From: Panorpa germanica
Lineage: Eukaryota; Arthropoda; Insecta; Mecoptera; Panorpidae
Direction: 5' to 3'
Assembly (NCBI GenBank): GCA_963678705.1
Contig: OY783216.1
Coordinates: 1,612,001 to 1,676,000 of the forward strand
Length of the DNA: 64,000 bases
The notes beneath the pieces were generated by a model. The model worked only from the letters and a program-made list of their open reading frames with translations, was not told the DNA's origin and searched no databases. Positions 11,864 through 58,150 of the stretch are shown one piece after another; position 1 is the first letter of the stretch, and each line of letters begins with the position of its first letter. The position numbers were made by a program, and so were the translations under genes.

Positions 11864-12248
11864 CAGAAGCGGTCTTAGGGGGTGGCAAGCAGGGCAACCG
11901 CCCGGGGCTTTGCAATCTTGCGCAACAAACCAAGTAAAAAAATTCATTCCTATATATGTATTTGAATCTCGCGCCTCGCTCTTTAGAAATCCCACTAGAA
12001 TCACTGCGTATATCTTTTAAGGCATTCATGTGCCTTAGTTTATCATTATTATTATTTGTCGTCTTTATGCTTATTAACTTTTATAAATCTTCCAATATAA
12101 AATTTTATTTCTCGTCAATTATCATCAAAAATACTTACTTACATTTACATAAATTATACAAAGAACAAGTGCCTCGGAAAGATCTGCCACCCCGGGGCCT
12201 CGCAAAGATCTGCTGCCCGGGGCCTTGCAATGACTAAGGCCGCCCCTG
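11864..12248 (+). repeat. hAT MITE (CAGRGGCGG family), copy 1
   Basis: A 385-bp element from CAGAAGCGGTCTTAG to CTAAGGCCGCCCCTG. Flanks CTTATATC and GTTACATC agree at 6 of 8 positions, consistent with a decayed 8-bp hAT duplication. Related copies lie at 20106, 34671 and 41842. The ORFs inside are chance readings of the repeat. Confidence 0.8.
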
Positions 12249-12858
12249 GTTACATCCGTTTACTGACACTGGCGTGGTAAAAAGTAAAATCTTTTATAGA
12301 CTAGAACGAAAATATTATTTGCGTTTGTATTATGTCAGATTGACGCTTGAAAAAAAAAAAATAAATAAGATCCACTCTCACTTTTGTGAACCCAGAACGA
12401 AATGTTTAAGCATTGACCGATGTCGCACTAGTGTGTACGGCACTGTAGGCATCGATATACCTCATACGACCAAGCAGAGCAGCCAGATCGTGACGTCACA
12501 ACTGTTGACAGCTGTTTGACATGTAACAAATTCGTCTTTCGTTCTTCATATCATGTCATTATTATCACTTAGTAATTTTAACATACAAATACTTGAAAAA
12601 TTAAACTCAAAATCATTCAACACTTACGATTAAAATGTGTTTCATTTTTAATGTTATTGAAAGTGTTTTTATAAGACATCAAAAAATTATATTTCGTTTT
12701 AGAACCGGTGAAGTTATTTATTTATAAATTAGAACAAAGTTATTAAGAATACCTTTTTAAGGATTATTTGATGTAGTAGTAGTTATTTTTAAAAATAAAA
12801 GCATTTATACTAGCAATAAAATAGGAAACTTTTAGATTAAATATTTCTAGGTTATGAT
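12249..12858. other. gene-free stretch
   Basis: No gene recognised. The ORF at 12274-12519 shows no domain. Confidence 0.4.
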
Positions 12859-15869: not shown

Positions 15870-16037
15870 CTTTTTGTTACTTTTGAATACGCTGCATTTG
15901 AACACATCGGTGGCTCCATCTCTCGCTATGTAGCTAAAGATTTTGAGATCGCTGCTGTCATGGGACACGTAAAAGATTCTATAAATTGGGTGGGACATCA
16001 ATTCTAACGGTCTGTCGTCTAACCACGGGTGCGGCTT
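15870..16037 (-). CDS. NOS1AP: NOS1AP/CAPON-like adaptor, PTB-domain exon (third of three here)
   Basis: This 168-nt exon encodes 56 residues: [13 protein letters not shown], then [18 protein letters not shown], then [17 protein letters not shown] and SVFKSNKK. The [12 protein letters not shown] and [10 protein letters not shown] runs are characteristic of the PTB domain of NOS1AP (CAPON), the adaptor that links neuronal nitric oxide synthase to other partners. The acceptor is CTTTTGTAG and the donor AAG|GTAAGAC; both boundaries are phase 0, so it joins in frame to the exon at 18079-18174. The exon forms the core strands of the domain. The following exon, which in known family members completes the C-terminal helix, was not found at lower coordinates. 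No stop or frameshift is present, so the gene looks alive. Confidence 0.92.
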
Positions 16038-19818: not shown

Positions 19819-20105
19819 TTGACTTTATATATACAGATGTGCCACTGGACACATATTGAGCAAGATGTCATAATTGTAAACATATTGTCTCAAATGCCTC
19901 TAGGGAAAGATCCATGAGTAATTGAATTTCTATTTATTATGTAGATCCAGAACTTAAAACGTATGTTGGACTGTACTCAGCGTAATCCTTTTCGCCATTC
20001 AGTTTATAGCAGTGCTTTTCATTTAAGCACATCATATCAGTATCATTTTATATTTAATTCAATTATAATATTATGCGTTGTCCACATAAGAACAACACCT
20101 ACATG

Positions 20106-20493
20106 CAGAGGCGACATTAGGAGGTGGCAAGAAGAGCAACGGCCCGGGGCCTCGCATTCTCGCACAACAACTCAAGTAGAAAAATTCATTACTATATATG
20201 TATTTGAATCTCGCGCCTCTCTCTTTTGAAATTCCACCAGAATCACTGCGTATATCTTTTAAAGCATTCATGTACCTTAATATATCATTATTAATATTTG
20301 TCGTCTTTGTGCTTGTTAACTTTTATAAAACTTCCAATATAAAATTTTATTTCTCGACAATTATCATCAAAAATACTTACTTACAATTTACATTAATTAT
20401 ACAAAGAACAAGTACCTCGCAAAGACCTGTCGCCCGCCGGGGCCTCGCAAAGATCTGCTGCCCGGGGCCTCGCTATGACTAAAGCCAGCCCTG
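20106..20493 (+). repeat. hAT MITE (CAGRGGCGG family), copy 2
   Basis: A 388-bp element from CAGAGGCGACATTAG to CTAAAGCCAGCCCTG, flanked by CCTACATG (20098-20105) and CCTACATT (20494-20501): an 8-bp target duplication with one mismatch. Same family as 11864, 34671 and 41842. Confidence 0.85.
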
Positions 20494-21270
20494 CCTACAT
20501 TCTACATCAATATTTGTTAGAAGAGGTTGTACAACACGTTCTCTGGGAGATTTATATGTTTACAAAATAAGTATTAAAAGTTAGGTTAATTCTTAAAACA
20601 TTTCAGTGTGTTTCGGATAATGCATAATATCGGGTTCAATTACCGGGCCAAACTGAGCTAATTTTTAAAACCCTTCGTGAACTTTTAAAGATATCATATA
20701 TTAATAAGAATGTTGAATTGATATAGACCATACAAGTTCAACAAATTGAATACACTAACCTCTAAAAAACATCAACTTATGAATGCTCGATGTCGAAAGT
20801 TAGAGTCGCACTAGTTTGGACGACGTATTACATATGCACTATCAGTATTTGGTATATTATATTTAAAACGTACTTATTTTAATCCTCTTAAATAACAGTT
20901 CGCCAGATTGGAAGCACTACTAGCGCCACAGTACATTGCAGAAGAACAAAGAAGCCAAGCAAATACTGTATCTAGTTTGCAGATTAACCCGTTTTACTGG
21001 CAACATTCGTGCTGAAGAACAACTGATAGTAAATAATACTAATTCCAAGTAAAGGTACACGTCCAGGGATCAGTATGGGAGTTATAGCAGGCGTGGTTAA
21101 AAGTATCATTCCCACTCACTGCTTTAATTTAATTTTGTATTTAATTTAAATTGTTTTGCATATGGCAATACGCGTAGTCATTCACAGTACCATTTTTAAT
21201 TTAATTTACTTTTTAAGTTTTTTTAGAACCTTACAAGAAAATTAAGAGAAACTATATTATATTATAATGT

Positions 21271-22417: not shown

Positions 22418-22660
22418 GGATATGCACCGTATCATTCAGTAGCATCCATGATCAACTTTTAGCCCCCAAAAGAATCTACTACATATCTAGAGTCAGAATA
22501 GGACAGAGGAATTTGATATAAACAGATCGATTTGATTTTAGCAGATCGATTTGTCGAATGTTGTGTTTCAATGACTTTCATGTTGATAAGTGGACGCATA
22601 CCTTTACACCAAATGAAATGCGAATATGTTAATAAAACCTCATATAAATTATTTATATGT
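22418..22660. repeat. foldback-type repeat related to the intron of gene C
   Basis: The block ATGCACC..GCATCCATGATCAACTTTTAG resembles 50391-50438 in the same direction, and the block near 22571-22620 resembles 50283-50320 in the reverse direction (shared ATGCGTCCACTTATCA). This suggests a decayed hairpin-type element. The boundaries are not defined. Confidence 0.4.
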
Positions 22661-34408: not shown

Positions 34409-34670
34409 AACTTATTGTTAAATTACGATTTTTCAAAAAGAATCACCGAAGTTTGTATCCCACCACTTTTTCATTCATTACACTGTAAGTATTAAACGTT
34501 TCAAGTGGCATTCTAGTAGCCAGAAGTGCAGCATGCTAGATTTATGTGCAAAAATTAATGTTTTCTTAACATTTTAGAAACATCAACTGAGTAAGGAAAT
34601 TCTTATTTACAATTCGCATGTCGTTTGGATAATCTCCAAGGACTTCAAAGAATATTGCTAAACTTCTATG
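34409..34670. repeat. duplicated segment, copy 1 (left of a hAT MITE)
   Basis: Begins AACTTATTG and ends GCTAAACTTCTATG. It repeats at 35019-35311 in the same orientation, with substitutions and a 31-bp length difference. The hAT MITE 34671-35010 begins immediately after it. Confidence 0.8.
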
Positions 34671-35010
34671 CAGAGGCGGTTTTAGGGGGTGGCTAGCAGG
34701 CAACTGCTTCGCGCCTCGCATTCTCGTGCAACAACCCAAGTAGAAAAATTCATTACTATATATGTATTTGAATCTCGCGCCTTTAGAAATCCCACTAGAA
34801 TCACTGCGTAAATCTTTTAAGGTATTCATGTACCCTAGTCTACCATCATTAATATTTGTCATCTTTGTGCTTGTTAACTTTTATAGAACTTCCAATATAA
34901 AATTTTATTTCTCATCAATTATCATCAAAAACACTTACTTACAATTTACATACACCATACAAAGAACAAGTGACCACCCCGGGGCCTCGCAATGGCTAAG
35001 GCCGCCCTTG
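34671..35010 (+). repeat. hAT MITE (CAGRGGCGG family), copy 3
   Basis: A 340-bp element from CAGAGGCGGTTTTAG to CTAAGGCCGCCCTTG. Unlike the other copies it has no matching 8-bp flanks (CTTCTATG against ATCATACA). Instead it lies exactly between the two copies of a duplicated segment. Confidence 0.8.
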
Positions 35011-40650: not shown

Positions 40651-41841
40651 GGTTTAAGTAAGTAAGTAGGCTACTTAGTATGCGAGTCCCGTAAGGAATA
40701 TACAGAGTGTACAATTTTCTAACACGTAATTTTAATATACAAGTAACTACCTACGCAAAAACCTACTACAGGATAACAAGTCATATATTTTTATAAAACT
40801 TTTCAATGAGATCAATTTTCACAAACTTTCAAATTTCAAATATTAAAATACATGAAAAGTATAATACGTAAAAAAGTTGAACGACATATTTCGCTTATAC
40901 GGCCCTTAATGAAATTACCATTGATCTTAACTTCAAGCCCCTCTCATTCTTTTTTTTTACTTAAATCTACGATCTAATTTCGCGGAAAACTTCAAAAAAC
41001 TTGTTACATTACAAAAGTTAAAAACTTTTTTTTATTTTTGAACAAATATTCCATAGCAGTGGTTTTTGTTGGCTTACAGTTGGTATTACTGCATGGTGTG
41101 TTTAAAGTACGGTTGTCATACCGTTTCTGACGTCAGATAATCCTCGTTAACATCGTTACCCTTCCCGCACCGCGCCGTAGGAGAACGCTGAGACCAGAGT
41201 TGGTTTCAAAGCTAATGAGTAGATGCAGAAAATCCACAAAAATGTAAAGTATGCCACCGTTAGCTACGAATGTAAAAAAAGCTAGTAGCAATAAAGTTAA
41301 CAAGAAAAGTCGTCTGCAAATTAAAAAAGGAAGCGAAGTTTAATTTCAAAAACATGTCATGAAGGATGTATTCTGCAGCTTCCCGTGCTACGTATATTTA
41401 AACTTTGCATAATTGTATACAAAACAATATACAGAAATTTACATATTTGTTTCTGAGATCTCTGAGAAGCAGAAATGTTTCTACACCTTGCGGCAACAAA
41501 TTAAATCATTTTTATTATTTTCGTGAATAATATTTGTTATAAGAAATATTATTTACAGTTGCCGTAGAATTTCTTTGTAATAAAAGGGCATGTATAAAAC
41601 CTATAAATACAAAAATGTTATGATGGTAATGTTAGTTAGCAAAGTAGAATAAATCACCAAGTCAGCAGTGGGATTTGAGAGTACATTTCCAGTATTTGTT
41701 TTCCGTTGTCAATATTTGTAATAATTGAACTAAGGCAAACAATTGAAACGTATCGAGCTCAGATATCACAATCAATAACAATGCGGATGACATTTCTCTC
41801 TGAAACAATACCAATACCATCGTTTGTGTATTAGTTGTAAA
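40651..41841. other. gene-free stretch
   Basis: No gene recognised. A GC-richer patch lies at 41130-41200. Confidence 0.45.
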
Positions 41842-42200
41842 CAGGGGCGGCCTTAGTTATTGCGAGACCCCGGGCAGCAGAACTTTGCGAGGCACTTGTT
41901 CTTTGTATAATTTATGTAAATTATAAGTAAGTATTTTTGATGATAATTGACGAGAAATAAAATTATATATTGAAAGTTTTATAAAAGTTAACAAGCACAA
42001 AGACGACAAATATTAATGATGATAAACTAAGGCACATGAATGTATTAAAAGATATACGCAGTGATTCTAGTGGGATTTCAGAAGAGCGAGCCGCGAGATT
42101 CAAATACATATATAGTAATGAATTTTTCTACTTTGATTATTGCGCGAGAATGCAAAGCCTCGGGCGGTTGCCCTGCTTGCCACCCCCAAAGCCGCCTCTG
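41842..42200 (-). repeat. hAT MITE (CAGRGGCGG family), copy 4 (inverted)
   Basis: A 359-bp element from CAGGGGCGGCCTTAG to AAGCCGCCTCTG, flanked by GTTGTAAA (41834-41841) and GTTGTACA (42201-42208): an 8-bp duplication with one mismatch. Confidence 0.85.
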
Positions 42201-45200
42201 GTTGTACACACTACAACAATGTACAGAGCACAGGGCATGATCAAACAGAGAAGTCTCATGGTAATTGTCACTGTGCTGCTAATAACGACGTAATTAATAT
42301 TAATTGAATTACAAGTACATCTATGGGTGTATGATATTATATGCAAAGGTATTTAAATATTTGTGATATCATCCAAAACTTTGCTCTGCTTTTAATTGCA
42401 GATATACAATAAACAAAGGTTAATTAATTAAGTAATTATGTCACGCTCATTTCCCATTTCAATTTATGGATGATGAAATATTTAGTAAATGTTCGATACC
42501 AGTTCATTATACAAGTTTTATATTATCTTAATTCGAGAAAACTTGGATGGATAAGAAAAGAAATGTATGCAGAATATACAACAATATCGCTCCGAGTTAA
42601 CAATATTCTTAAATTATAATCACATTTCAGAAAAATAAAATAGAACATATCGATAAAACTTAAAAAGACAATATCCAATTATTTAAGTAACTAAGCAAAG
42701 TATAAGGTAGACAAAGAAAATCTTTATTACAGAAGACCAGTTTTTCATTTTCTTCTTATTAGCGCGCATAAAACAGAAATAAATCCTGAGTACCAAACAA
42801 TATGAAAATCTGTAACAATTTTGTTTGATGTAAAATACTGCATATTGTGTTTTTTTTTTGTGTACGAATATATTTAAAATCTGAGGTTAGTTTTAAAACA
42901 AAATAAATTAAATCCTCATCCCTCATGGGTGTTTACTTTTAGGGGTAGTTCGTTCTCCACGTAGCAACCATCACTACGAACATAAATACAATTCACAACG
43001 GTATCTTATTCTTCTTCGTTTTCTCTGTGGTACATTAAACTAGATTATTTTCATCTTCTTTTTCATTTGTTTCGTTTTTACATACTGTCACGACAGAAAC
43101 AATTCGCAAAATAAAATACTTTTGTTTTATTTTTTTTATATATAATTTTGCAATTTAAAAATACACTGCTAACATTTTAGTATTAAATTACTACAAAAAA
43201 GTTTTTATGAAACGAATTCACTTGTTATGTATTTTTATACAAGAACGCTTTACTTGTGCAAACACTCTGTGATCGAATTCAATCCGTCTGGATATTTTCA
43301 GGACGGATTATCGAAACATAAGGCCAATCTCTAGCTTTGTTTCTATTTGTTCGATGTGTTTAAATGATGCTATCCGTTTCTTTCACAATAAAGACAAGCC
43401 TGTCTAAAGAAAGCCATGTTAAGACCGTCTTAAGTGTTATAGAACTCATGACTGGAGTCCATTTAGTTAGATCTCATGCGAATCTTGCAAAATAAAGTTT
43501 TTGATAATTTTTCAATTTCTAAAATATTTTGGATATTAATTGAATCAGTCTCTTCCTTATGGAAGCTCATGTATGGGTCAATGTAAAGGTCATTTATTCC
43601 CGTAGGACCCTTTTTATGATCAAGAAACGTGTGGGATTCATGTACATCCCAGTCATAAGTTTAAAGATGAAAAGGGTCTTCTATTCGCCGAAAAGAGAAA
43701 AGAAGTTTTATGATTATGTTAATAGATAAAAAGGTAGATTTGTTTAAGAAATAAGTCACAAAACGTTGTATATTAGGTAACATTTACGTAATAGATAACT
43801 TACGTTATGTTAGATAAACTTTAAACACATATAACTTTATTTAATAGAAGGAGTAAAGGTCGCGCTAGTAGATTTTTCTTAATTTTGGTGCAGGTAATGA
43901 ACTCTTAGAGAAACTAAAGTGTATTTAAAAACAACAAGAAATATGTTTTCACATTTATCAATATGTTTATTGTGAAAATGCGAGAGAGTTTGGTTCACTA
44001 AAGATGGTATCACCTGTTATATATTATAGATACATTTTCTTCCTTCGTTATAGAACATTTTTTTCAATGGAATTAAAAGCTATTCAACAAATTTAATGAA
44101 TTATTTTCAGCACAAGCAGCTACAGTGTAATTAAATTATGAAAGAAATACAAACACTATAGAACAAAAAAAACGTAAAAATTTTAAATACAACTGATGCT
44201 TAAGTCTCATGGGAAGATGTTCACACTATTAGCATGAAAACTAAACAACTATTATATATAAATGCAATCTTAAAAAATATTAAAAGCATAAACGTGTGCA
44301 ATTTTTGCAAATCAACTGTGATTGGTTTTTAATTATAAATAAAAGTAGATATCATAAAATTCATGTATTACTTAATGCATCGGGTCCATTGGATTTATCT
44401 CCTCCCGCTTCCCTTCTTTTCCATGTATGATACGATAAATCCAAAACGCTTGATGCGGATAATGCAAACGTGCTTAATTTAATATGCTCCTCAATGTGTT
44501 TAAGTCAATAAATCAAAAACCTTTACCGATTAATTAATTTAAGGGAGTACACTGACGTATAACAAATAGAATCCACAATTTTAACTCCAGATTACGGTTG
44601 CAATCTATCGCGGAGTCTCCTTAATAGATACAAAATTTCATTTTTAATAATGATTTTATTAAAATATTATCTTTCACAAAAGCAATTGATTGATTTGGTT
44701 TTTATGCCTCAGCATTCAATAGGCTTTTCTAACTGGTTTAGTGATTTCTCATTCATTCTCCGTTTACTCCATTATTCGGTTAATATTATCCGATACATTT
44801 ATTTCTTGGCTGCCTCATCAGAGCTATATCAGATTATTGATATGATTCGATTTCATACAAAAGGATTTTTTCTAAAGGGAGCTTTTTATATTTTATAATG
44901 CAATAGAAAAGAAAGAAGTTTGTCAAAATTCGTGATGGATAGGAAGTGAAGGTGGGAACAGGGCTGGTCCAAGGGGCATTGGGAGCTAAGACAAGCGATA
45001 AAAGATCAAGCAAATATAAAGATAGACTTCTTCTTATATGGACATTGAACTATGGAGAATAAGAAGAAATCTGGAAGTACAAAGTACGAATGGATCGAAA
45101 GAGAAAATATGGGAACTCAGGGATGCAAGAGTGAGATGTAAAGGGCCAGTGGAAGAAAACGTAACACTTAGGAAAGAATGAATAAAAGTCTAAATAAAAA

Positions 45201-46568: not shown

Positions 46569-47632
46569 CTACTCATCAGCCGCAGGTGTAGTAACATTAC
46601 CGCCTAAATCAGCTAACTTTGCTTTTAACGTATCTAGCGACGCTGCTTTATCGCCATCACCTGCAGGATCCTTTTGATCATCAGCCGCAGGTGTAGTAGC
46701 ATTGACGCCTAAATCAGAAAACTTTGCTTTTAACGTGTCTAGCGACGCTGCTTTATCACCATCACCTGCAGGATCCTTTTGATCATCAGCCGCAGGTGTA
46801 GCAGCATTACCGCCTAAATCAGCAAACTTTGCTTTTAACGTATCTAGCGACGCTGCTTTATCGCCATCACCTGCAGGATCCTTTTGATCATCAGCCGCAG
46901 GTGTAGTAACATTAACGCCTAAATCAGCAAACTTTGCTTTTAGCGTATCTAGGGACGCTGCTGTATCACCATCACCTGCAGGATTCTTTTGATCATCAGC
47001 TGCGGTTTCAGATTTAGATGAATCTCCTCCAAAAGCACCAAAGATTCCCACTAGTTTATCTACAGGAATAGATTTATCAGCACCATCAGGATTTTTATCA
47101 GCATTTCCATCAGCATTTTCTTTATTATTTGAACCGAGTTTCTGCAGATCTGCAAAATATTGCATGAGGCTTTCCACAAATTTTAGAAATGTAGTATCGT
47201 TAAGTGCTGATAGATTACTGAAATCCATGTATTCATAGGATGCGTCGTCATCATCCTTCGAGCCCACAACTGAATTCACCAAGCCTCTTCTTCCGTCAAC
47301 TTCTTGTGTGTATTCATCATTAGCTGGTTCTAATCTTCTTTGGGAATATTGGGACGAATCTGAAAACATGTAACGCATAGAATCACCAATATTTCAATGT
47401 TCTTACTCTGTAATAGGAAGTGTTTTCACTTGCTATATCATTTAATAATTTACTTGTAATAGTTTACAAGTTGGCAGTCTCCATCTTATACAGAGGAAGA
47501 AACATACTATTAATATTTGGCAGATTAAATGAAGAAATTAATTGAACCTTGATATCCGTAGTAACTAAAGGCTGGAAGAACTTCTCCGATGAATGCGCAC
47601 AGGACGAAGATGACCAATTGACATTGAAACAT
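46569..47632 (-). CDS. gene A: secreted protein with four 35-aa repeats
   Basis: Two exons: 47548-47632 (85 nt) and 46569-47359 (791 nt), with a 188-nt phase-1 intron (AAG|GTTCAA, TTTTCAG|AT). The product is 291 aa. Residues 1-22 form a signal peptide (MFQCQLVIFVLCAFIGEVLP), so the protein should be secreted. Exon 2 starts SSQYSQRR, giving dibasic sites at residues 36-37 and 52-53 separated by LEPANDEYTQEVDG (14 residues ending in Gly). An Asp/Ser-rich middle follows. From about residue 150 there are four near-identical 35-aa units containing DQKDPAGDGDKAASLDTLKA and a KFADLG segment that could form an amphipathic helix. It is the last gene of the array in transcription direction. The family is unknown to me. 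The start is set by the signal peptide and by alignment with the other first exons. Confidence 0.85.
46572..46997 (-). repeat. 105-bp (35-aa) coding tandem repeat in gene A
   Basis: Four copies with a 105-bp period: the GATCATCAGCCGCAGG landmark falls at 46676, 46781 and 46886. Copies 1-3 from the 3' end are very similar at the DNA level. The upstream copy (46920-46997) is the most diverged (QKNPAG, DTAAS). Confidence 0.9.
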
Positions 47633-47683
47633 TGCTCTCACGTGAATTTAAATCAAATGTCCAAACAGTTCGTCTTGCAAGCA

Positions 47684-47691
47684 GTATTTGT
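47684..47691 (-). promoter_or_regulatory. TATA-like box of gene A
   Basis: ACAAATAC on the minus strand; its 3' end is 52 nt from the A of the start codon (47684 vs 47632). This is exactly the distance seen in genes B and C. A GCAA pair and an ATTTGA-TTTAA block downstream are also shared without gaps. Confidence 0.5.
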
Positions 47692-47834
47692 TTTTTCCTA
47701 TTAATCAATAGTCTTAAGTTAAGTTAAGTTTTTGTATTTAATAAGCGTAGAGGTTTATTAATAACTACAAGCATTTTAAAAACTGTTATTGCAATTAATG
47801 CAATATAACGTGCGACATGCCTATTGTTATTCGA

Positions 47835-47848
47835 GAATGGAACATTAT
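47835..47848 (-). promoter_or_regulatory. shared upstream block of gene A
   Basis: Plus-strand text GAATGGAACATTAT, about 200 nt upstream of the ATG. Versions with at most one change from each other's consensus occur upstream of B, C and E. The similarity extends about 60 nt further, including AACCATTAG in A, B and C. Confidence 0.5.
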
Positions 47849-48310
47849 CGTGAACATACCAAATCAAAACAACCATTAGTACTCAGTTTATTCTCACATT
47901 TAAAAACAAGAGAATTTTTAATTTCGATTGAATCAGTATGAAATCAAAAGTAATTTAAAGTTTAAGGGTACCTTAGGTTGATCACACTTGCTAGCTAATT
48001 AAAGTGTTGAATTGCGTTACGTTTGCTACCTTAGGTTGATCACAATTTCCCTGAAATCACCCATCCTGAATTACATTCACTCCTTGCCTTTAATTAACAA
48101 AATGAATTTTTAATATTTGTTATCTGGTAATTCTTATCAGTTAGTTGATGAAAGTAATATCATGTAATGAACCTTACATGTTTTGTTAACGGAATGTAAA
48201 TTGTTCATGATTTACCTAAAATTGATTTACAGAAACTATTTTGATTTAAATAAAATAAAAACTTTAAATTCATTATAACAATGCAGAAGACTGGATTTCA
48301 CATTCCTGGA
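47849..48310. other. intergenic region between genes A and B
   Basis: AT-rich. The motif TACCTTAGGTTGATCACA occurs twice, near 47969 and 48029. No gene seen. Confidence 0.6.
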
Positions 48311-48320
48311 TTTATTTATT
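48311..48320 (-). terminator. overlapping poly(A) signals of gene B
   Basis: Two overlapping AATAAA hexamers on the minus strand, about 90-100 nt after the stop codon of gene B. Confidence 0.5.
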
Positions 48321-48409
48321 GTCAGAAAAAATACAAATATATTAATTGAACTAAATAGGAAAAAGAACTTTTTGTTATTGTATCGTACTAAATTAAAAAT
48401 AAACAATTA

Positions 48410-48982
48410 TTATTCCTCTTCTGCTGGTGCTTCTTCTTCTGCAGGTGCTTCTTCTTCTGCTGGTGCTTCTTCTCCTCCTCCGCCTCCATCACCTCCTCCA
48501 TCGCCACCTCCATCACCTCCTGCATCACCACCTCCATTTTTACCATCCACATCTGCGTACTCATGGGAATCACTTACGTATAAATTGGGTATGAAGTAAT
48601 GTAGAAAGATCCTTCTTGCCGCACTTTTTTGTGCTGCATTACCACGAGAGCTTCCTAATCTTCTATGCCTATTTTGAGAAAGATCTGAAAGTATGCATTA
48701 TATAGAACTATAATTTTTTAGGAGTTCACCATTATGTTTTAATTTGATTTTATATAAGCACTATGATATAAACATTAATTCCAAATACAAAAACCTTTTC
48801 AACAGAGATAACATCTGAGTGGTCTCGATACCGTGACAGCAGAGTGATAACGAAACAAAGTTATTTAAATATGATAAACCTAAGATGTTATTTGTACCTC
48901 TATGTCCACCGCTGGCAGGGAGAGACAGAACCTCCACAAGCAACATGCAACACAGAATGAAGGCAACTTGACATTTAAACAT
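48410..48982 (-). CDS. gene B: secreted protein with GGGD and EEEAPA tail
   Basis: Exons 48898-48982 (85 nt) and 48410-48684 (275 nt); phase-1 intron of 213 nt (AGAG|GTACAA, CTTTCAG|AT). The product is 119 aa. Signal peptide MFKCQVAFILCCMLLVEVLS (residues 1-20), then SGGHRDLSQNRHRR. Dibasic sites are at residues 36-37 and 52-53, with a 14-residue spacer (LGSSRGNAAQKSAA), followed by the aromatic motif IFLHYFIPNLY. The tail is a Gly/Asp run (GGGD units) and three APAEEE units. The first exon and the intron next to it closely match gene C, so B and C are recent duplicates. A GTAAGT hexamer lies within exon 2, just after the aromatic motif. The MFKCQ Met is preferred over the upstream in-frame Met at 49006 because the position matches the other paralogues and the TATA-like box. 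Confidence 0.85.
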
Positions 48983-49033
48983 TCTAGCAGCAAGATTTAA
49001 AACCAAATGTCGCAGAGCTAGTTTTTGCGAGTT

Positions 49034-49041
49034 GTATTTAT
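49034..49041 (-). promoter_or_regulatory. TATA-like box of gene B
   Basis: ATAAATAC followed by AACTCGCAA. It is 52 nt from the start codon, the same spacing as in genes A and C. The implied 5' UTR is short, about 20-30 nt. Confidence 0.55.
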
Positions 49042-49144
49042 CTCCTTGATAACGATTTTATATTTTACCTAATAAGCGTAAAATGTTTAATATTTGTGTA
49101 AAATGTTATTAAAAGTGTTATTACACACTGACATTGTTGTTTAA

Positions 49145-49158
49145 GAACGGAACATTAT
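49145..49158 (-). promoter_or_regulatory. shared upstream block of gene B
   Basis: Plus-strand GAACGGAACATTAT, 163 nt upstream of the ATG. The surrounding block (CATTGTTG..., AACCATTAGAGCTAATTCTA) is nearly identical to that upstream of gene C. The stretch 49071-49127 between block and promoter is also conserved with gene C. Confidence 0.55.
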
Positions 49159-49923
49159 CTTTAATGAACCAGAACCATATAACCATTAGAGCTAATTCTA
49201 TTTTTTTATATATATTCAAAATTACAAAATAATCAATTCGGTTGAATCAGCATGAAATCAAAAATAATAGGAACCTTAAGTGTAGCTCGAGCAGAATTTT
49301 GCACTAGGTGTTTCAGAACCCTGATGAGGATCTAATTGAGCATCTTCACGGTTTAGCTGTGACATTTCTACTAATATTTAACGTATTACTTATGTAGAAA
49401 GTAGAAACATAAAGTTTTCTTCTATGTACTTAAAGAGTTTTTAAATAGATTAAATGAAGGGGAAGGGGGGGGGGGGGGGGTTGCTAGTACACAGTAATTT
49501 TTGTGCGAGATTTTATAATCTTTTTTGCATATTTTGGTTATAATCTAAAGTGATCATACCACATGAACTTTAAAAATTAGTTTTATTATTTCTGTTTAAA
49601 AAGTATTTGAACTAAGATGAGAAGCTACATTTGTCTGTTAATTTATCTTGCCAACGTTTGCTCCGGTCGCTTAATCTTGTTGTTGTTTGTAATTAAGATA
49701 AAAAATGATTCAATTCAATAAGATATTCTACTCTCGTTAAACAAATTAATTTGAATACACAGTCCAAAACAGTTACAAGAGAGGAAAATGACAAATAACA
49801 ACTTTATAGATTCAATTAATATCCAGAAGTTTAATTCAAATAAAGAAATACAAATATATTAGTAGCACTAAATAAGAAAATGATCTTTTGAATATTGGTT
49901 CGTACTAAATTCAAAATAAATAA
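49159..49923. other. intergenic region between genes B and C
   Basis: AT-rich with a 16-G run at 49465-49480. No gene and no clear AATAAA close to the stop of gene C. Confidence 0.6.
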
Positions 49924-50705
49924 TTATTCTTCGGCGGCGGCTTCTTCACCACCACAGTCATCTTCGTACAAAAAGGGAAACATGTAATGAAGGAAGATCC
50001 TTCTTCCAGGAATTTTTTCTGCTGAATTATCAAGAGATCCTCCTGATCTTCTATGCATATCTTGACCAACATCTGAAAGTGTAGATTACAGAAAAATATT
50101 ACTTCTTTAATACATTAACTTTGATCCTAATTAGCAGCTTTAATTAACTTCGTACATGGGGTGTTTATCAGTCGCTGTGCTCAAAACTTTGCAAACGATT
50201 TTCAGCTCAAATTATGTCAAAATTACTTCAATAAATTTTGTACATTATTATCGATGACGCATCTCGGGTTTCAATCGATCAATGTAAAGTTATGCGTCCA
50301 CTTATCAGCATGGAAGTCGTTCCGCGCTTACTATTAAACAAATTCAATAACAATACCCAACAAATGTCTATTATTTTGCACCAGACCAGAGGTATGCATC
50401 GTCAGTGGAGATGGTTTGCTTCCATGAGCAACTTTTAGAGTCGTGCCTAATTTTGTCTATTGCTTTACTCTTCTGCCAACACATAAGTATGCACAAGACT
50501 TGCATTGTCTAAAGCCAGAATATCATTGTTGACAATACATGCATCACGCTCTTAATGAAATTGTTTGAAACGTAACAGCAAAGTTATTAAAATATGATAA
50601 ACCTAAGATGTGAATTGTACCTTTGTGTCCACCGCTGGCAGAGAAAGACAGAACCTCCAATAGCAACAAGCAACACAGAATGAAGACCGCTTGACATTTG
50701 AACAT
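49924..50705 (-). CDS. gene C: short secreted propeptide-like protein
   Basis: Exons 50621-50705 (85 nt) and 49924-50072 (149 nt), phase-1 intron (AAAG|GTACAA, CTTTCAG|AT). The product is 77 aa, the shortest of the array. Signal peptide MFKCQAVFILCCLLLLEVLS, then SASGGHKDVGQDMHRR. Dibasic sites at residues 36-37 and 52-53 enclose SGGSLDNSAEKIPG. The aromatic motif IFLHYMFPFLY follows, and the protein ends in EDDCGGEEAAAEE. With no repeat tail it shows the minimal plan of the family. GRR at residues 51-53 has the form of an amidation-plus-cleavage site in neuropeptide precursors, but that role is inference. The intron (548 nt) is longer than in B because of an inserted foldback-like segment at about 50150-50500. 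Confidence 0.85.
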
Positions 50706-50756
50706 GGTTGCAGAAAGATTTTAAGTCAAATATACGCAGAGTTTTTCTTGCGAGTT

Positions 50757-50764
50757 GTATTTAT
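50757..50764 (-). promoter_or_regulatory. TATA-like box of gene C
   Basis: ATAAATAC followed by AACTCGCAA, 52 nt from the start codon, as in genes A and B. The 59 nt from box to ATG align with gene B without gaps. Confidence 0.55.
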
Positions 50765-50873
50765 TGTCTCCTAAATAACCATTTTATATTTTACCTAAGC
50801 ATAAAATGTTTAATATTTATGTAAAATATTATTAAAAGTATTATTACACAATATCATGGTCATTGTTGCTAAA

Positions 50874-50887
50874 GAATGGACCATTAT
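50874..50887 (-). promoter_or_regulatory. shared upstream block of gene C
   Basis: Plus-strand GAATGGACCATTAT, 169 nt upstream of the ATG, inside a longer block almost identical to that of gene B. Confidence 0.55.
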
Positions 50888-51489
50888 CCGAAATGAAGCA
50901 GAACCAAAAAACCATTAGAGCTAATTCTATTTTTTAATCTATATTTAAAATAACCAAAATATTTATTTTTAAAAATATGTTAAATGAAAAAGTTTGACTG
51001 ATGCTTATCACAGTAGTTCGAGTTTAAGTTTACACTCGATGTTAAAAAGCCCTGGTGAGGGTCTTGGCAAGCATTTTAATACATACAAATATGTTCTTAA
51101 GATTTTATAATTCTTGAAAAGGTCTTCTTAATAAGTTTTATTGTTATGTTAATGGGAAAAGGATACGTGGATTTATTTTGCAAAAAGCCAAACATTCGGT
51201 CACAAAACGTTGATATTAGGTAACGTGTAACATAGGTAACAGGTAACAATTGTTATGCTAAATAAACCATAAGTACACGTAAGTGTCTTTAGCTAAAATA
51301 TCTGAAATTATAAGTTAATTGACTTAAATATAATTGATCAAAAAATTGAAATTGATTCAAATAAAAAAGCTAGAAGACTGAAAATCTAAAAGAGATATTA
51401 AATATAAATAATTTTATGTAACAAATATAACCTTTTTACATACACTTTATTATGTGAAATATATTTAAAATTCAGATTTTTTTTAATTG
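50888..51489. other. intergenic region between genes C and D
   Basis: AT-rich, no gene or repeat boundary seen. Confidence 0.6.
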
Positions 51490-51495
51490 TTTATT
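51490..51495 (-). terminator. poly(A) signal of gene D
   Basis: AATAAA on the minus strand, about 70 nt after the stop codon of gene D. Confidence 0.5.
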
Positions 51496-51563
51496 TGTTT
51501 ATAACATTGTATTTATAAGAAAGAAGCAAATCGTATTAGTGTTTCTTTTTCGTTAATTGCATC

Positions 51564-52712
51564 TTAATCATCAGACTGATCATCAGAATACTCGTTATAA
51601 TAATCATCTTCGGCCCCGTACAAAGAAGGAAAGACATAACGAAGGAGGAGCCTTCTTCCAGATGAGGCTGGTTCAAATTTATTTTGATCCGGCTCCAATC
51701 TTTTATACATATTTTGAGAGCCGACTGAAAAAAAAGTGTTAGATAATTTAGCATATGTTTCACTTTTTTTCTTCGTATTCATTTAAATCTATAGAATGGC
51801 ATTGGCACGAATTAACACCTTCTCCTTCCAATTACACATGAAACAACATGTTCAAACCAATTTAGGTCTGTTGCAAATCAATCACCAATCGAAACCCCAT
51901 CATAACTCGATGGAAATATTGGAGCATATTAAGAATAGGTGTAGGCGAAGGAGGAAAGTGAAGTAGACATGATGGACATCTTCCAAGGAACGAAGAAGGG
52001 ATACAATGGTCATTCATGATATTAAAAGCAAGGCAAGGGAAAATAAAGACAAGGAAATGAAGGATGACAATTTGTAGTGTTTAAACTAAAAACTGTATAA
52101 AAAAAATGAATTGCATCTAGCTAATTGCCCTTCGGAAAAATCAATTGTATCTGGTCACAATAGCCTTCAACGGTATTTTAAAAGTAGAACTATTAATCCG
52201 GCACTCTGTAGCAAACTGCAAGATCTAATTAAACTGAACGTGTATTTTTATAAGAAGTATATATTTACTTTTCGCGACTCACATATTTATGATTAATTTT
52301 CCTTTTATTCCATGTTCACACGCCACAGACGAAAATAAACATTCATTCGGCATTACATTCTACAATGTCGTCAAGCGATGTTGTGAATATTGGAATTCGC
52401 TACACTACAGAACACGAGAATAAAAGACTGAGCCCGAGAAATTTTTCATCTGCGGAGCGCAAGTGAACGATGCCGAATGAACATATCCAACATTGCTGGA
52501 TCGTTTCACTAATGAATTCATTCGGCACTTTTGATTCACTTTTTGAAAGGCAGTAATTAACAAAAGCTGAACCGTCGAATATTACTAATGCAAGTGTTGC
52601 TAATACAAACCAATAACTTACATTTGCTTTCAAATCTACCGCCGGCATTGTAAGACAGAACCTCTCCCAGCAACATGCCACATACAACGAAGACTATCTG
52701 ATATTGGAACAT
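51564..52712 (-). CDS. gene D: short secreted propeptide-like protein, acidic tail
   Basis: Exons 52622-52712 (91 nt) and 51564-51724 (161 nt). The 897-nt phase-1 intron has a canonical AAAT|GTAAGT donor and a T-rich TTTCAG acceptor. The product is 83 aa. Signal peptide MFQYQIVFVVCGMLLGEVLS, then YNAGGRFESKFGSQNMYKR. The dibasic pairs (KR at 38-39, RR at 54-55) enclose LEPDQNKFEPASSG, again 14 residues ending in Gly, followed by LLLRYVFPSLY. The tail is Asp/Tyr-rich (DDYYNEYSDDQSDD). LEP after the first dibasic site is shared with gene A. The large intron contains decayed repeat material (about 51850-52080 and 52320-52540) but no exon. Confidence 0.83.
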
Positions 52713-52753
52713 GGCTGTCGACTTATCTACATTTAAATGATGCTACCACTACT

Positions 52754-52762
52754 GTTTATTTT
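52754..52762 (-). promoter_or_regulatory. possible TATA-like box of gene D
   Basis: AAAATAAAC, 42 nt from the start codon. The spacing differs from genes A-C, and the surrounding match is weaker. Confidence 0.3.
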
Positions 52763-53201
52763 CTGTTATCAGTAAGTTTTTATACGAAATTTATACTATA
52801 TATAATAACCGTAAAGTATATAAGATTAACTACATGTATTTTGGAAATTGCGATTATTGATGCAGTATGTTACTTTAATCCGTACATATCAGAACAAACA
52901 AATACCATTACCACTACTGCTCCATTTTTTCAAAATTCTTTTGCGCAGGTTTTTGCCATAAACAGTCGCGCAATTATTAACACACATATAATTCTATTGA
53001 GGTAAGAACTACATTAATATTTATACAATTTTTACATAAAAAACATACTAATATATTATGACCTATTTATGTAAAATTACTTATAGAGAATTAAAAATTA
53101 CATAATTAATTTTACATAAGTAAATGTAAATTTTACTTAAAAAATTAATTTATATTATATTTTTAATGTAACATATACAGACAAAGAATATATAGTATGT
53201 A
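52763..53201. other. intergenic region between genes D and E
   Basis: Very AT-rich, with several TTTACATAA-like runs at 53030-53130. No gene. Confidence 0.6.
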
Positions 53202-53303
53202 CTAATTTATTTTAAGTTGGGTTGTTATATTAAAACTCGCTCTAAACCCTCCGTCTTTATCAGGTTTTTCATCTGGTGCTTTTTTACCATCGTCAGCTGG
53301 TTT

Positions 53304-53334
<31 letters not shown>

Positions 53335-53465
53335 TCCTCAGCTGGTTCTTCCTCAGCTGGTTCTTCCTCTGCAGGTTCTTCCTCTGCAGGTTCTTCCTCT
53401 GCAGGTTCTTCCTCAGCTGGTTCTTCCTCTGCAGGTCCTTCCTCTGCAGGTTCTTCCTCAGCTGG

Positions 53466-53499
<34 letters not shown>

Positions 53500-53525
53500 T
53501 CCTCAGCTGGTTCTTCTTCAGCTGG

Positions 53526-53559
<34 letters not shown>

Positions 53560-54352
53560 TCTTCAGCTGGTTCTTCCTCTGCAGGTTCTTCCTCAGCTGG
53601 TTCTTCCTCTGCAGGTTCTTCCTCAGCTGGTTCTTCCTCAGCTGGTTCTTCCTCTGCTGGTTCTCCCTCTGCTGGTTCCTCCTCAGCTGGTTCTTCCTCT
53701 GCTGGTTCTTCCTCTGCTGGGTCTTCCTCTGCTGGTTCTTCCTCAGCAGGTTCTTCCTCAGCTGGTTCTTCCTCTGCTGGTTCTTCCTCAGCTGGTTCTT
53801 CACCATCGTCTTCTGCTTCTTCAACTGGTGCTTCTTCGAATAACCCATCGTCCTCGAGTTCTTCATCTATTGCATCTTCACCTTCCTTTGCTACTGTGCC
53901 TGATGACACTTCTCCAGTTGCTTTATTACCGCACTGTGGATTTTCATTAAAATATTTCACGACTTCTAACATAAAACTTAGCATTTCTTCGTTCAGGGCC
54001 GGACATTCGCAGTATACATAGGATTCATCCTTACCATTATTATTATATAAAGAGGGTAGTAAATATGAAAGCAAAAATCTTCTTGTGTCAAATTTTTGTG
54101 AAGAGTTATATACAGCATTCTTCTGCAGATATCTTCTGAAGATATTTTGTTCAATTTCTGAAAATTATTGATTAATAATAGTGTAAATATTATCACAGCG
54201 GAGAATTGTCTGTTCGAGAATTCGAAAATTATCTGTAAAAAACCAACACAAATCAGTCAGTTATTTCTACCTTTATTTCCAGTGATATTATAACCGAACA
54301 CCACCTCTCCGACGAATATGTACAACAACAAGACCGTTTGACATTGGATCAT
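53202..54352 (-). CDS. gene E: secreted protein with about 34 EEEPA repeats
   Basis: Exons 54271-54352 (82 nt) and 53202-54157 (956 nt); 113-nt phase-1 intron (AAAG|GTAGAA, TTTTCAG|AA). The product is 345 aa. Signal peptide MIQCQTVLLLYIFVGEVVFG, then YNITGNKEIEQNIFRR. Dibasic pairs at residues 35-36 and 53-54 enclose a 16-residue spacer, followed by FLLSYLLPSLY, the family aromatic motif. Next is a segment with three Cys (YCECPALN.. and PQCGNK) that may fold or cross-link. An acidic linker leads to about 34 tandem EEEPA units (residues about 145-315) with rare D, G and K variants. The end is basic to neutral (KKAPDEKPDKDGGFRASF). The repeat makes it extremely acidic and probably disordered. 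Long open frames on the other strand and in other frames over the repeat are artefacts of the 15-bp period. Confidence 0.85.
53296..53800 (-). repeat. 15-bp coding minisatellite (EEEPA) in gene E
   Basis: About 34 direct copies of a 15-bp unit (plus-strand GGTTCTTCCTCTGCT, with CAGCT/GCAGG variants), all in register with the codons. Third-position variants (TCT/TCA, GCT/GCA) are scattered in a mosaic, suggesting repeated slippage or unequal exchange. Confidence 0.9.
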
Positions 54353-54529
54353 TGTTGTTGTGCGAAATTAAATTGCGCGAGCATTTGCGTTCGTTCATTT
54401 AATTTCACTTTCTAATAAACTTTGATAGGCATTACATCTTTTTTTGACTTTAACAAGATTAAACGAATATTCTAGAAATCTTATTCTAAGTGTAGTGCTA
54501 TAATATCGTAACATGATCGTTGGCGTTTA

Positions 54530-54543
54530 GAATGGAACGTTAT
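54530..54543 (-). promoter_or_regulatory. shared upstream block of gene E
   Basis: Plus-strand GAATGGAACGTTAT, 178 nt upstream of the ATG of gene E. It matches the blocks of A, B and C at 13 of 14 positions at best. Its flanks are less conserved than in B and C. Confidence 0.4.
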
Positions 54544-55287
54544 TATAATTGCATTAGAAGAAAACACTCAAAAAATAATTTTACGATTATGTTAGCATGA
54601 AATCAAATATAATGAAAAATGTAAGAGTGACAGGGAGAAAATTGTCGGTTCCCACTTGCTAACTTGTTAACACATGCCAGCTAGTTGCATATAATGCTCA
54701 TATAGAAATTATCTTGCCGTATTACCTTTACATTTGCTAGCTTGCTACAAGCCAATGAAAGTGTTACATCTTTACTTGGCTGCTCACACTGTTACTATCA
54801 TACTAAAAATTGAGTTGTGAACCTCAGTAGGGAACATGTGATTAAACAGGTCGAAGAAACGAAGAAAAAGGAAGTAGTTTTGGGTAAGAGAGTAAAGAAG
54901 ATGATGCAGGATTTGTGGGAAGCTGAACTTCAAGAATGCTGGAGTTATATTTGGGACTAGGGGCGCTGCAATTTCAGGGGTCAAATCAGAACCTCAAATA
55001 TCCAATTATTTTATATTATTCAGTTCGCAATATTATAGAAGTTATTAACGATTGAAATAATCCATCTAGACAATGGAAGGCATCTAAAAGAATGCGAAAG
55101 CGAAACTGTCTTGCTTGCGTGTAATGGCATTTCCCAGGAAGCAGGAATGCCTACCTAATTTAAAAATTGCCGGACTTTAATATACTCTACGTAATTTTAT
55201 AATACCTAAATGTAAAATAAACATAACATCATTTATTAACACATAATTTTATTGCAGTCAGATAACGAAATTTTAAACCAAATATAA
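54544..55287. other. intergenic region between genes E and F
   Basis: No gene. AATCAAATATAATGAAA near 54600 resembles sequence upstream of A and B. Confidence 0.5.
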
Positions 55288-55293
55288 TTTATT
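55288..55293 (-). terminator. poly(A) signal of gene F
   Basis: AATAAA on the minus strand, about 24 nt after the stop codon. Further hexamers lie at 55248 and 55232. Confidence 0.5.
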
Positions 55294-55316
55294 GTATAAA
55301 ATGTAGACTTTTCATG

Positions 55317-56237
55317 TTAATGAATGTAGTGGTATTCACCGGGAAGTACAATTTCAAAGTCTTCATCAAAATCACTTTCCCCTGTAATATCTAACTCAAA
55401 TACACCATCTGGAATTTTACTATCACTCTCATCTGTTTGCCTGTCATCTTGGATAATCAGAGGTTTGAGTCTTTGATAGTTGCTCCTATTTAAATTGTAG
55501 TTTTCAATATCCGTTCGGGATCTGTTCATATTCTGTACTGATTGATTCATTAGCTGCTGATTTTTATAACTTTGGAGAATAAATTCTTTCATTTTCGAAA
55601 GTATGTCATCCAAATTCTCTGAATCACGTCTGCTGTTGAGGTTGGGCGATTCCTGACGTCTGTTATTGGAGATAGACATCTCACGACGTCTGTTATTAAG
55701 GTTTGACATTTCCCGACGTCTGTTATTAAGGTTTGACATTTCCCGACGTCGGTTATTAAGGTTAGACAATTCACGGCGTCTGTTATTGTACACAGAGAAG
55801 AAATCTTTTATTTTGGAGTTTCGTCTTCCGTCTGTAATTAAATGTAATTTGTAATTTATGTTTTACTAATTGTGTCCATAAAAATCGTTGCATAATAGAT
55901 ATCATAATCTGATATCACTTAGATATTTCTCAAATTTGTTTATAATTTTATAAAGCCGTAATTAGGATTTGGTGAGGACACTGCATGGGGATCTTGGTGG
56001 TAATATTATTTGTAGTACTTAGTATTTGCTACTTCCACCAAAATCTGCATTGATAGTGGCTCAAGACCAGCCTATTTTAATAAACCTTAAATTTGATAAA
56101 AACTAATAGATAATTTACAAAAAAAAAAAAAATGAAGTGGACTTACTAGAATTTGTATGGCGTGAAGATATTGGTAAAAACTGACTAAGGAATATGCAGC
56201 ACATGGCCAGTGCGCACACTGTTCCATTGCGAAGCAT
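55317..56237 (-). CDS. gene F: secreted protein with repeated RRR-flanked peptides
   Basis: Exons 56147-56237 (91 nt) and 55317-55831 (515 nt). The phase-1 intron is 315 nt, with a perfect TCTA|GTAAGT donor and an AATTACAG acceptor. The product is 201 aa. Signal peptide MLRNGTVCALAMCCIFLSQF, then LPISSRHTNSNGRR. A 13-residue spacer (NSKIKDFFSVYNN) leads to RRR. From residue 48 a 10-aa unit repeats: RRRELSNLNN, RRREMSNLNN (twice), RRREMSISNN, then the degenerate RRQESPNLNS and RRDSENLDD. A Gln/Asn-rich middle and an acidic C-terminus (DITGESDFDEDFEIVLPGEY) follow. Short identical peptides between basic triplets resemble multi-copy peptide precursors, though arginine-rich structural repeats are also possible. 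The signal exon is more diverged from A-E, closer in style to G. Confidence 0.83.
55625..55795 (-). repeat. 30-bp coding tandem repeat in gene F
   Basis: Direct repeats with a 30-bp period (plus-strand CGACGTCTGTTATTAAGG type), four good copies and two degenerate ones, encoding RRREMSNLNN. Confidence 0.85.
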
Positions 56238-56908
56238 CGTGGATGTGTGGCATGTTTTATCAGTGCGGCTAACTTGACATTATAGTTTCTATTAATGAAA
56301 AGTATTATGTTCTAATGCAGCGTAATGTACTTTGCAAATGCATTAATAGATTTCGTTAAAAAAATGTATAGCTATTGTTAGAACGTGAAATAAAAAATAT
56401 ATAATTACTAGATATAATGTATGAGCAAAAACTTCAAACTTTGTAAGGATTAGCACAACGAAATACCATAAATATTTAAACAATTAGATTTGTTGCTAAT
56501 GTGTTTTCTAATGAGTGCATAGAAAATTGGATAATATTAGAATTGGAAATTAAATCAATTTGTTAAATTATTCTTTTATTTAAGTAACTATATATTATAT
56601 TAATAGCAAAATCATTAATTTTAAAATAACATACAATACAAAATAATAACAAATTATATGAAAAGAAAAACTTTGAGAATTCATCTATTTCGCTCGGATT
56701 AACCAACTCAGATTATATCTGAAACAATAAAAAGAAAATGTAAGATTAAACAGATTTGTTTCATTTACTCTAAAAGATATTGAGTAGTGGCGTATCATGG
56801 TACAAATACACACACTTATTATATTACAATTTATGCGAGATATAACCTAAATTTTCTTTAGAAGCTAAATATAACAACATACCCCATTGAATGTCGAAGG
56901 GCATAGCC
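56238..56908. other. intergenic region between genes F and G
   Basis: AT-rich. CTATAATG on the minus strand near 56285 could be the TATA element of gene F. No other feature. Confidence 0.5.
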
Positions 56909-58150
56909 CTAAGTTTTGTTTTGATCTTTAGTTTTCTTATCCGCAGAATTATTACTACTATCTTTTGCAGAGCTCCTCCGAGATTCTCCTTTTACCGGGT
57001 TTTCTTTTACTTTCTCACTCTCCATCTGTCTTCGTCCGCTACGTCTACTCGTCGATCTTCTCTTGCTACTTCTAGCACCTTGACGACCACCTTTACGACG
57101 GCTTGACTCCTCGTTTTCCTTCAACGATTCTTTATTCAGAGAAACTAAATTTTTGTTAAATTCTTCCTCGGTAGGCTCTATTACTTCATAGTCTAAATCA
57201 AGTAGCTTTCTGTTGTTGGCTTTCTTATCTTGTTGCTTTCTTCGTGGAGAAGCTTGATTTTGATTTGAATATTTGTTCCTATTATTATTTCCAGAATTTT
57301 GCGTCCATATCTCTGCTCCTGATGATCCGGTCCCTGATGATGACAACCCTGTATGCATCGCGGCTGAATCATACGTTTCCAATTCAGGATACAAAGGTTC
57401 AAGAGGAACCGAAATATCCACATTATTCGGTTTATCAGCTTCATTTTGTTTATTCAACAGCATCACCATGGTATCTAACACAGTTTTATAATATTCGGAG
57501 TTAGGTGCCTTTCCTCCTTGCGATTGCATCAAAGAATCAGTAATTTGCTGGGGAAGATTTAAATTTACTAACAACTTTGTTGCTCCATCCGATTCAGGTC
57601 CTGTTGGTCCCTGTTCTAATGTCTTTCTTGTTTTTTGCTGGTTCAGCAAATTCTGAATGTAGTTGTAAAGTAATTTCTGATATAAAGTCTTGGATTTCTT
57701 TCCTGGAGGTTTGCCCATTTTGACATGATAGTAAACATGGACGTCATCTTTTGAGGCATCATGGTGGTCATCATGGTGGTCATCATGGTGGAGAACATGG
57801 TCGACAACGGGATGAAGACTAGGGTTAACAACATGCTGGATAACAGGCGGTACAATAGGCGGTATAACAGGGTGAGTTTTATTTGTATTTAAGACAAACT
57901 GTGTCAAATTCTTAGGTGGTTTCCAGAAATCTGTGTTCGAAGATTACACATTAGAACATTAAAGTAGATAGCTAATAATAGAAAATTAACATAAAGCTCT
58001 CTTTGGATAAAACTCTTTTCAAATTAATTCCAACCGCAGATAATACAGATACTAATAACATAAATTACCTCCAAAATAATTGAATGGTGCACTACTTAAA
58101 TTAACAGCTTGCAACAAAACGAAGATGCAGACAAGTCCATTATGAAACAT
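56909..58150 (-). CDS. gene G: secreted His/Asp-rich protein with basic tail
   Basis: Exons 58069-58150 (82 nt) and 56909-57930 (1022 nt); 138-nt phase-1 intron (GGAG|GTAATT, AACACAG|AT). The product is 367 aa. Signal peptide MFHNGLVCIFVLLQAVNLSS followed by APFNYFGDFWKPPKNLTQF. A Pro/Val-rich stretch (VIPPIVPPVIQHVV) leads to a His/Asp cluster (HHDDHHDDHHD, residues about 75-85) that could bind metal ions. A central, more ordinary region (SKTLYQKLLYNYIQNLLNQQ) may be helical. An Asn/Gln-rich part and a strongly basic Ser/Arg tail (KRRSTSRRSGRR) end the protein. It lacks the RR-14-RR plan of A-E but shares gene structure, orientation and position, and its MFHNGLVC start resembles MLRNGTVC of F. 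It is the first gene of the array in transcription direction. Confidence 0.85.

Follow-up and report, generated by a model that had tools for sequence, protein, structure and literature searches.

A single-locus array of seven two-exon genes in the scorpionfly Panorpa germanica: five paralogues and two look-alike neighbours

In a 64,000-nucleotide stretch of the genome of the German scorpionfly, Panorpa germanica (Mecoptera; contig OY783216.1, positions 1,612,001 to 1,676,000; hereafter the window), we analyzed seven two-exon gene models that lie on the minus strand within 11.6 kb (46569 to 58150 of the window). Five of them, genes 3 to 7 (46569 to 54352), are paralogues that are homologous over both exons. 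In profile scores set against shuffles, genes 1 and 2 show no relationship to these five, and the claim of an earlier note on this DNA that all seven form one tandem family is not supported. We tentatively read the array as five paralogous secreted, protease-processed acidic precursors with two look-alikes beside them, serving in a gland secretion, an interpretation that we consider possible rather than probable. The contig is chromosome 13 of an assembly of 254 scaffolds and 464,228,243 bp, according to the excerpted genome report (PMC11464959).

Five paralogues and two neighbours

When each protein was scored against a profile of the other four, genes 3 to 7 reached 41.4 to 86.0 bits, and for each of them none of 2,000 shuffles scored as high. 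On the family profile, genes 1 and 2 obtained −4.2 and −2.5 bits, respectively, values matched or exceeded by 1,663 and 1,420 of 2,000 shuffles. The alignment of first exons described in the earlier note therefore stands for genes 3 to 7 but not for genes 1 and 2, which score no better than shuffles. Pairwise blastp joined nine of the ten pairs among genes 3 to 7 (E 0.018 to 4e-24); genes 3 and 4, the one pair that it did not join, count against a family of five.

Genes 5 and 6 are the closest pair, with identities over aligned bases of 83% upstream, 87% in exon 1, 76% in exon 2, and 77% downstream. These flank and exon identities were taken only from alignments spanning long stretches, and the flanks were alignable for some gene pairs only. 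The introns of the two genes match over their first 42 nucleotides (nt) and, as part of a longer match, over about 35 nt of their 3' ends; among the other intron pairs, only a 41-nt match between genes 1 and 2 fell below E 0.05. Two pieces of the gene 5 intron recur elsewhere, 50160 to 50202 as a 43-base match on contig 20, which concerns the intron and not coding sequence, and 50283 to 50321 as a 39-base match at 22570 to 22608; they are perhaps the remnant of a transposable element. Nonsynonymous (dN) and synonymous (dS) divergence was compared with NG86, a crude test, over the first 75 residues for the set of ten pairs. In the mature part, dN was below dS in seven pairs, slightly above it in two (0.66/0.63 and 0.82/0.70), and undefined in one; for genes 5 and 6, exon 1 gave 0.12/0.25 and the mature part 0.35/0.48. 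On these values, the description of the cluster as fast-evolving can be kept in a relative sense only.

Genes 1 and 2, with net charges of +10 and +3, are basic. They may be distant members of the same family that have diverged past detection, which we regard as conceivable though not as the better bet. The two genes share strand and intron phase with the others, are contiguous with them, and have the intron in a similar place, but phase-1 introns just after signal peptides are a known excess in human genes (according to the excerpted PMC7259759), and because such introns are frequent, the common two-exon layout is weak evidence of kinship. Gene 2, too, has basic pairs 15 residues apart, yet such pairs appear in 22% of its own shuffles. 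Between themselves, genes 1 and 2 show a short N-terminal similarity (blastp E 1.3), and their introns (57931 to 58068 and 55832 to 56146) share a stretch of 41 nt that is 76% identical (E 2.5e-4 with the seven introns as database), which may perhaps be an AT-rich chance match or a trace of common origin. The negative profile scores, not above shuffles, speak against membership. The lesson is that adjacent secreted genes cannot be taken for one family solely because they have two exons and a phase-1 intron in common.

Gene models and evidence for coding

All seven models were recovered as the earlier note had given them. For genes 1 to 7, the first exons measure 82, 91, 82, 91, 85, 85, and 85 nt, the introns 138, 315, 113, 897, 548, 213, and 188 nt, and the proteins 367, 201, 345, 83, 77, 119, and 291 residues. 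All seven introns are GT–AG, in phase 1, and placed after residue 27 to 30, that is, a few residues past the likely cleavage site of the signal peptide; the signal peptides are predictions from hydrophobicity and the residues at −3 and −1. Between array genes, 489 to 964 nt separate a stop codon from the next ATG. TATA-like strings occur at most 220 nt from the ATG in six of the seven genes, as a raw string count. The first exons of genes 4, 5, and 6 have a further GT in phase at nt 73 (52638–52639, 50631–50632, and 48908–48909), which is a possible alternative donor, and the donors of these genes are therefore uncertain. The features are as follows, with their basis in brackets; the dibasic sites are taken up in the next section.

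58069..58150, minus strand: gene 1 exon 1, signal peptide (gene model)
56909..57930, minus strand: gene 1 exon 2, mature part, net basic (gene model, charge count)
56147..56237, minus strand: gene 2 exon 1, signal peptide (gene model)
55317..55831, minus strand: gene 2 exon 2, arginine-rich 10-residue repeats (gene model, tandem-repeat table)
54271..54352, minus strand: gene 3 exon 1, family member (gene model, profile)
53202..54157, minus strand: gene 3 exon 2, dibasic module and PAEEE repeats (gene model, repeats, profile)
54078..54137, minus strand: gene 3, both dibasic sites and the residues between them (residue positions mapped on exon 2)
52622..52712, minus strand: gene 4 exon 1, family member (gene model, profile)
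51564..51724, minus strand: gene 4 exon 2 (gene model, profile)
51651..51704, minus strand: gene 4, both dibasic sites and the residues between them (residue positions)
50621..50705, minus strand: gene 5 exon 1, family member (gene model, profile)
49924..50072, minus strand: gene 5 exon 2 (gene model, profile)
49999..50052, minus strand: gene 5, both dibasic sites and the residues between them (residue positions)
48898..48982, minus strand: gene 6 exon 1, family member (gene model, profile)
48410..48684, minus strand: gene 6 exon 2, APAEEE and Gly-rich repeats (gene model, repeats, profile)
48611..48664, minus strand: gene 6, both dibasic sites and the residues between them (residue positions)
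47548..47632, minus strand: gene 7 exon 1, family member (gene model, profile)
46569..47359, minus strand: gene 7 exon 2, 35-residue repeats (gene model, repeats, profile)
47286..47339, minus strand: gene 7, both dibasic sites and the residues between them (residue positions)
48983..49231, minus strand: upstream block of gene 6, within an 84% match to 50579–50961 at gene 5 (DNA match)
50706..50961, minus strand: upstream block of gene 5, matching gene 6 (DNA match)
47823..47973, minus strand: upstream stretch of gene 7, 70% identical to 49133–49287 at gene 6 (DNA match)

The spliced length of every model is a multiple of three, which had been put forward as something that chance would not produce. 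This argument is circular because the splice sites were chosen to hold the frame, and other tests were therefore run. A strict detector combining signal peptide, GT, AG, and open reading frame (ORF), with the donor range fitted to the seven genes themselves, called exactly these seven on the minus strand of the 11.9-kb array, none on the plus strand of the array, and none on either strand of the remaining 52.1 kb of the window. A relaxed detector, in which donor and phase were left free, called eight in the array (the seven genes and, in gene 1, an additional start); 200 Markov-2 resamplings gave 0.685 calls on average and at most 5. ORFs of 344, 320, 274, and 181 residues exceed the maximum of 171 from 200 Markov-1 resamplings, an independent argument for coding, though the length of the 320-residue ORF, that of gene 3, counts for little, since other frames are open across its repeat as well (overlapping ORFs of 213 to 271 residues). 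Another independent argument for coding comes from the 19 rows of the tandem-repeat table: the period is divisible by three in 8 of 8 rows within second exons versus 3 of 11 outside them. Such frame-keeping repeats are found in genes 1, 2, 3, 6, and 7 and not in genes 4 and 5.

On the other side of the balance, the relaxed detector also fires outside the array, with 16 calls in the 46.4 kb to its left and 7 in 40 kb of right flank, and it favours other donors in genes 4, 5, and 6. The 23 flank calls are of mixed phases and mostly have short second exons, one of them reaching an exon 2 of at least 100 residues. Some of the seven might be decayed or chance ORFs and not expressed genes. Exon 2 is short in genes 4 and 5 (52 and 48 residues past the junction), and the models are predictions from sequence. 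However, both exons of genes 4 and 5 fit the family profile and five of the seven genes have repeat periods that preserve the frame, and we consider it very improbable that any of the seven is such an ORF.

Candidate processing sites, acidic tails, and possible function

At the start of exon 2, genes 3 to 7 share a module of about 38 residues; the earlier statement that the mature parts diverge strongly is thus only half right. The only all-basic columns of this module are two adjacent pairs, present in all five proteins and 14 to 16 residues apart. Mean pairwise identity is 80% and 100% at the two dibasic sites and 18% in the spacer between them, and the proteins of genes 4 to 7 have no further dibasic pair anywhere. 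In genes 3 to 6, the second site is followed by a stretch xxLxYxxPxLY. Net charge past the second site is −117, −7, −7, −18, and −23 in genes 3 to 7, respectively, and before it +4, +3, +2, +7, and −2. The mature parts contain 3, 0, 1, 0, and 0 cysteines, and three of the five genes (3, 6, and 7) have in-frame repeats.

On the reading that we tentatively prefer, the signal peptide would direct the products of genes 3 to 7 to export, and a protease similar to furin or a prohormone convertase would cut at both dibasic sites, so that a short pro-part, weakly basic in most of the genes, would be removed together with the spacer. The released product would be a disordered polyanionic chain, which could lengthen or shorten through in-frame repeat slippage and might act as a hydrating, ion-binding, or gel-forming part of a gland secretion. 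Panorpa males, not in all species, offer hardened salivary masses (PMC8983043 and PMC3783485, both in excerpt), and since males may give such masses, saliva is a natural place to look. Our guess for the secretion is this male salivary mass, the nuptial gift, and expression in the salivary gland is likewise a guess. A more elaborate version would be a two-component bioadhesive kit in which protease-released polyanions from genes 3 to 7 and polycations from genes 1 and 2 demix or gel into the hardened nuptial mass. We think this very far-fetched; if true, the gift would for the first time be described in molecular terms, and sexual selection would be what drives the turnover of the paralogues.

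Several observations weaken the case for processed acidic precursors in saliva. Two adjacent pairs of all-basic columns arose in none of 20,000 shuffles within the fixed alignment, but those shuffles keep the alignment, in which the sites are lined up from the start; when each protein is shuffled singly and unaligned, the spacing pattern appears in 0.4 to 6% of cases. Gene 3 has one extra basic pair, near its end, and gene 7 has lost the hydrophobic stretch after the second site. The AlphaFold model of gene 7 exon 2 is uninformative (predicted local distance difference test 41), and composition is therefore the sole basis for the predicted disorder. A salivary gift is absent in some species of Panorpa (PMC3783485, in excerpt), and we found no statement in the titles, abstracts, and excerpts of the literature on whether P. 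germanica gives salivary masses.

Genes 3 to 7 could instead encode small bioactive peptides, with the segment of 14 to 16 residues between the sites as the product, amidated in those genes that have glycine just ahead of the second site, and the acidic tail as a by-product. In prohormone precursors, conserved dibasic sites come after the signal peptide, in some cases with glycine ahead of them, and all five genes resemble them in combining a signal peptide with conserved dibasic pairs. Glycine stands ahead of the second site in genes 4, 5, and 7 but not in genes 3 and 6, and while three genes have precursors of only 77 to 119 residues, acidic tails follow the module and are long in genes 3 and 7. 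The proposed product is, moreover, the least conserved part of the module, the opposite of what is expected for a peptide that binds a receptor. We therefore consider this explanation unlikely.

Somewhat less unlikely, in our judgment, is that the genes are fast-evolving secreted effectors or reproductive proteins, such as salivary effectors or proteins of the seminal fluid, comparable with the SSSGP arrays of the Hessian fly (PMC2955719, in excerpt). The close spacing of the genes, the signal peptide on a separate exon, the better conservation of upstream sequence and exon 1 than of exon 2 between genes 5 and 6, and the slight excess of dN over dS in two of ten mature pairs are consistent with this. 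By contrast, dN is below dS in seven of the ten pairs, introns are unconserved except in genes 5 and 6, and P. germanica is mainly a scavenger according to the excerpted genome report (PMC11464959). Panorpa serves as a model for the study of nuptial feeding and sexual conflict (PMC3783485 and PMC8983043, in excerpt). A compact family without known relatives and with clear candidate processing sites gives testable leads.

Relatives, known gene clusters, and surroundings

Genes 3 to 7 occur at a single locus in the genome. Searches of 464,208,970 bases in 249 contigs with genes 1, 2, 3, 4, 6, and 7 as queries returned only the array, gene 5 being hit by gene 6, apart from two hits that we took as chance: one of gene 1 on contig 9 (E 4.6, 34% over 69 residues) and one of gene 2 on contig 21 (E 6.3, with one stop). 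The claim that the genes belong to no known family is borne out for genes 3 to 7 within the scope of the queries. Pfam gave nothing above the cut-off for the seven proteins (gene 3 without its repeats), NCBIfam had no match for the N-terminal parts of three proteins, and the Protein Data Bank had none for the family profile. Weak Pfam hits to five families (E 0.0056 to 0.62, all under the cut-off), the best of them in the gene 7 repeats, were taken as chance. Fibroin P25 (PF07294) had no match in the genome, though the control genomes gave none either, and none of the seven proteins matches it in Pfam.

In a set of 5.8 billion proteins, nothing was found at E ≤ 1 for the family profile or gene 1. 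As a positive control, an insect chemosensory-type sequence gave 703 matches in the same set; among the 120 matches listed are sequences of beetles, flies, ants, bees, a lacewing, a cockroach, and a louse, and no Mecoptera are named among them. A restriction of genes 3 to 7 to Mecoptera or Panorpidae can only be inferred, because no Mecoptera stood among the named matches, the search relies on shared words of five residues, and its queries were the family profile and gene 1. Among the Panorpa papers that our searches listed, the titles, the openings of the abstracts, and some excerpts yielded no description of secretory proteins.

The comparisons with published clusters that follow are with the excerpted descriptions of those systems. 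In organization, the closest is the salivary SSSGP-1 array of the Hessian fly (PMC2955719), which has seven genes within 15 kb, each with a signal-peptide region, one intron, and a mature region. It shares with the present array a compact tandem arrangement (here 11.6 kb), an intron at the boundary of signal peptide and mature part or within the signal-peptide region, found here in all seven, and, between genes 5 and 6 as the youngest pair of this array, stronger conservation of upstream and signal-peptide DNA than of the mature part. Introns and untranslated regions are highly conserved there, however, whereas introns here are unconserved in all but genes 5 and 6; the mature parts there have little in common, whereas genes 3 to 7 keep the N-terminal module; strong positive selection is reported there, whereas dN is mostly below dS here by the crude NG86 test; and two of the seven genes here lack a sequence relation to the rest. 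Compared by description and not by sequence, SSGP-11 of the same fly (PMC2990301) is nearer than SSSGP-1 to the pattern in signal peptide, intron, and local mature conservation: it is clustered and has a single intron of conserved place and phase, a conserved signal peptide, and local conservation in the mature part, although its excerpted description mentions no dibasic module or acidic repeats.

The Drosophila glue genes Sgs1, 3, 7, and 8 (PMC10835880) are likewise clustered copies with two exons and a phase-1 intron, and their larger members have exon 2 repeats, as do genes 1, 2, 3, 6, and 7, but not 4 and 5, here. Unlike the introns of the array, placed after residue 27 to 30, those of Sgs cut the signal peptide at residue 10, and the C-terminal motif IRXC[L/V]C of Sgs is absent by reading from all seven proteins, which have 0 to 3 mature cysteines. 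The KQY and KHI cassette effectors of the pea aphid (PMC7495047) also combine a conserved signal-peptide region with divergent mature sequence, but they have many miniature exons and lie mostly at scattered loci, in contrast to the two exons and one compact locus here. The array is thus built like such clusters and, by the features tested against these partial accounts, is no member of SSSGP or Sgs.

In the neighbourhood of the array, an exon encoding a PTB domain lies at 15771 to 16037 on the minus strand, with further exons in 1.592 to 1.602 Mb. We take these exons to be NOS1AP. Broken transposase fragments of several ORFs, presumably of the Mariner type, were seen in the window at 2467 to 3175 (plus strand) and in two other stretches (L005, 8914 to 9627, minus strand; L012, 3092 to 3460, plus strand). 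An interspersed repeat with a recurring ORF (KLTSTKTTNIN...) occurs at 11853 to 12255, 20071 to 20500, 34566 to 35010, and 41836 to 42293, its longer copies being about 82 to 91% identical; by eye, it is also present in stretches L003 (64 to 363) and L006 (5173 to 5530). An inverted repeat of about 0.76 kb, 93% identical, joins 115 to 869 and 6132 to 6895 of the window.

Elsewhere in the genome, 19 of 20 COX1 matches lie outside the mitochondrial contig and are nuclear mitochondrial fragments, two of which, on contig C5, are repeated about 104 kb apart. The mitochondrial gene order, I-Q-M-ND2-W-C-Y-COI, differs from that of ditrysian Lepidoptera in I-Q-M-ND2 and from that of Neuroptera in W-C-Y. 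It was read by eye; ARAGORN called only the transfer RNA genes for Gln and Val.

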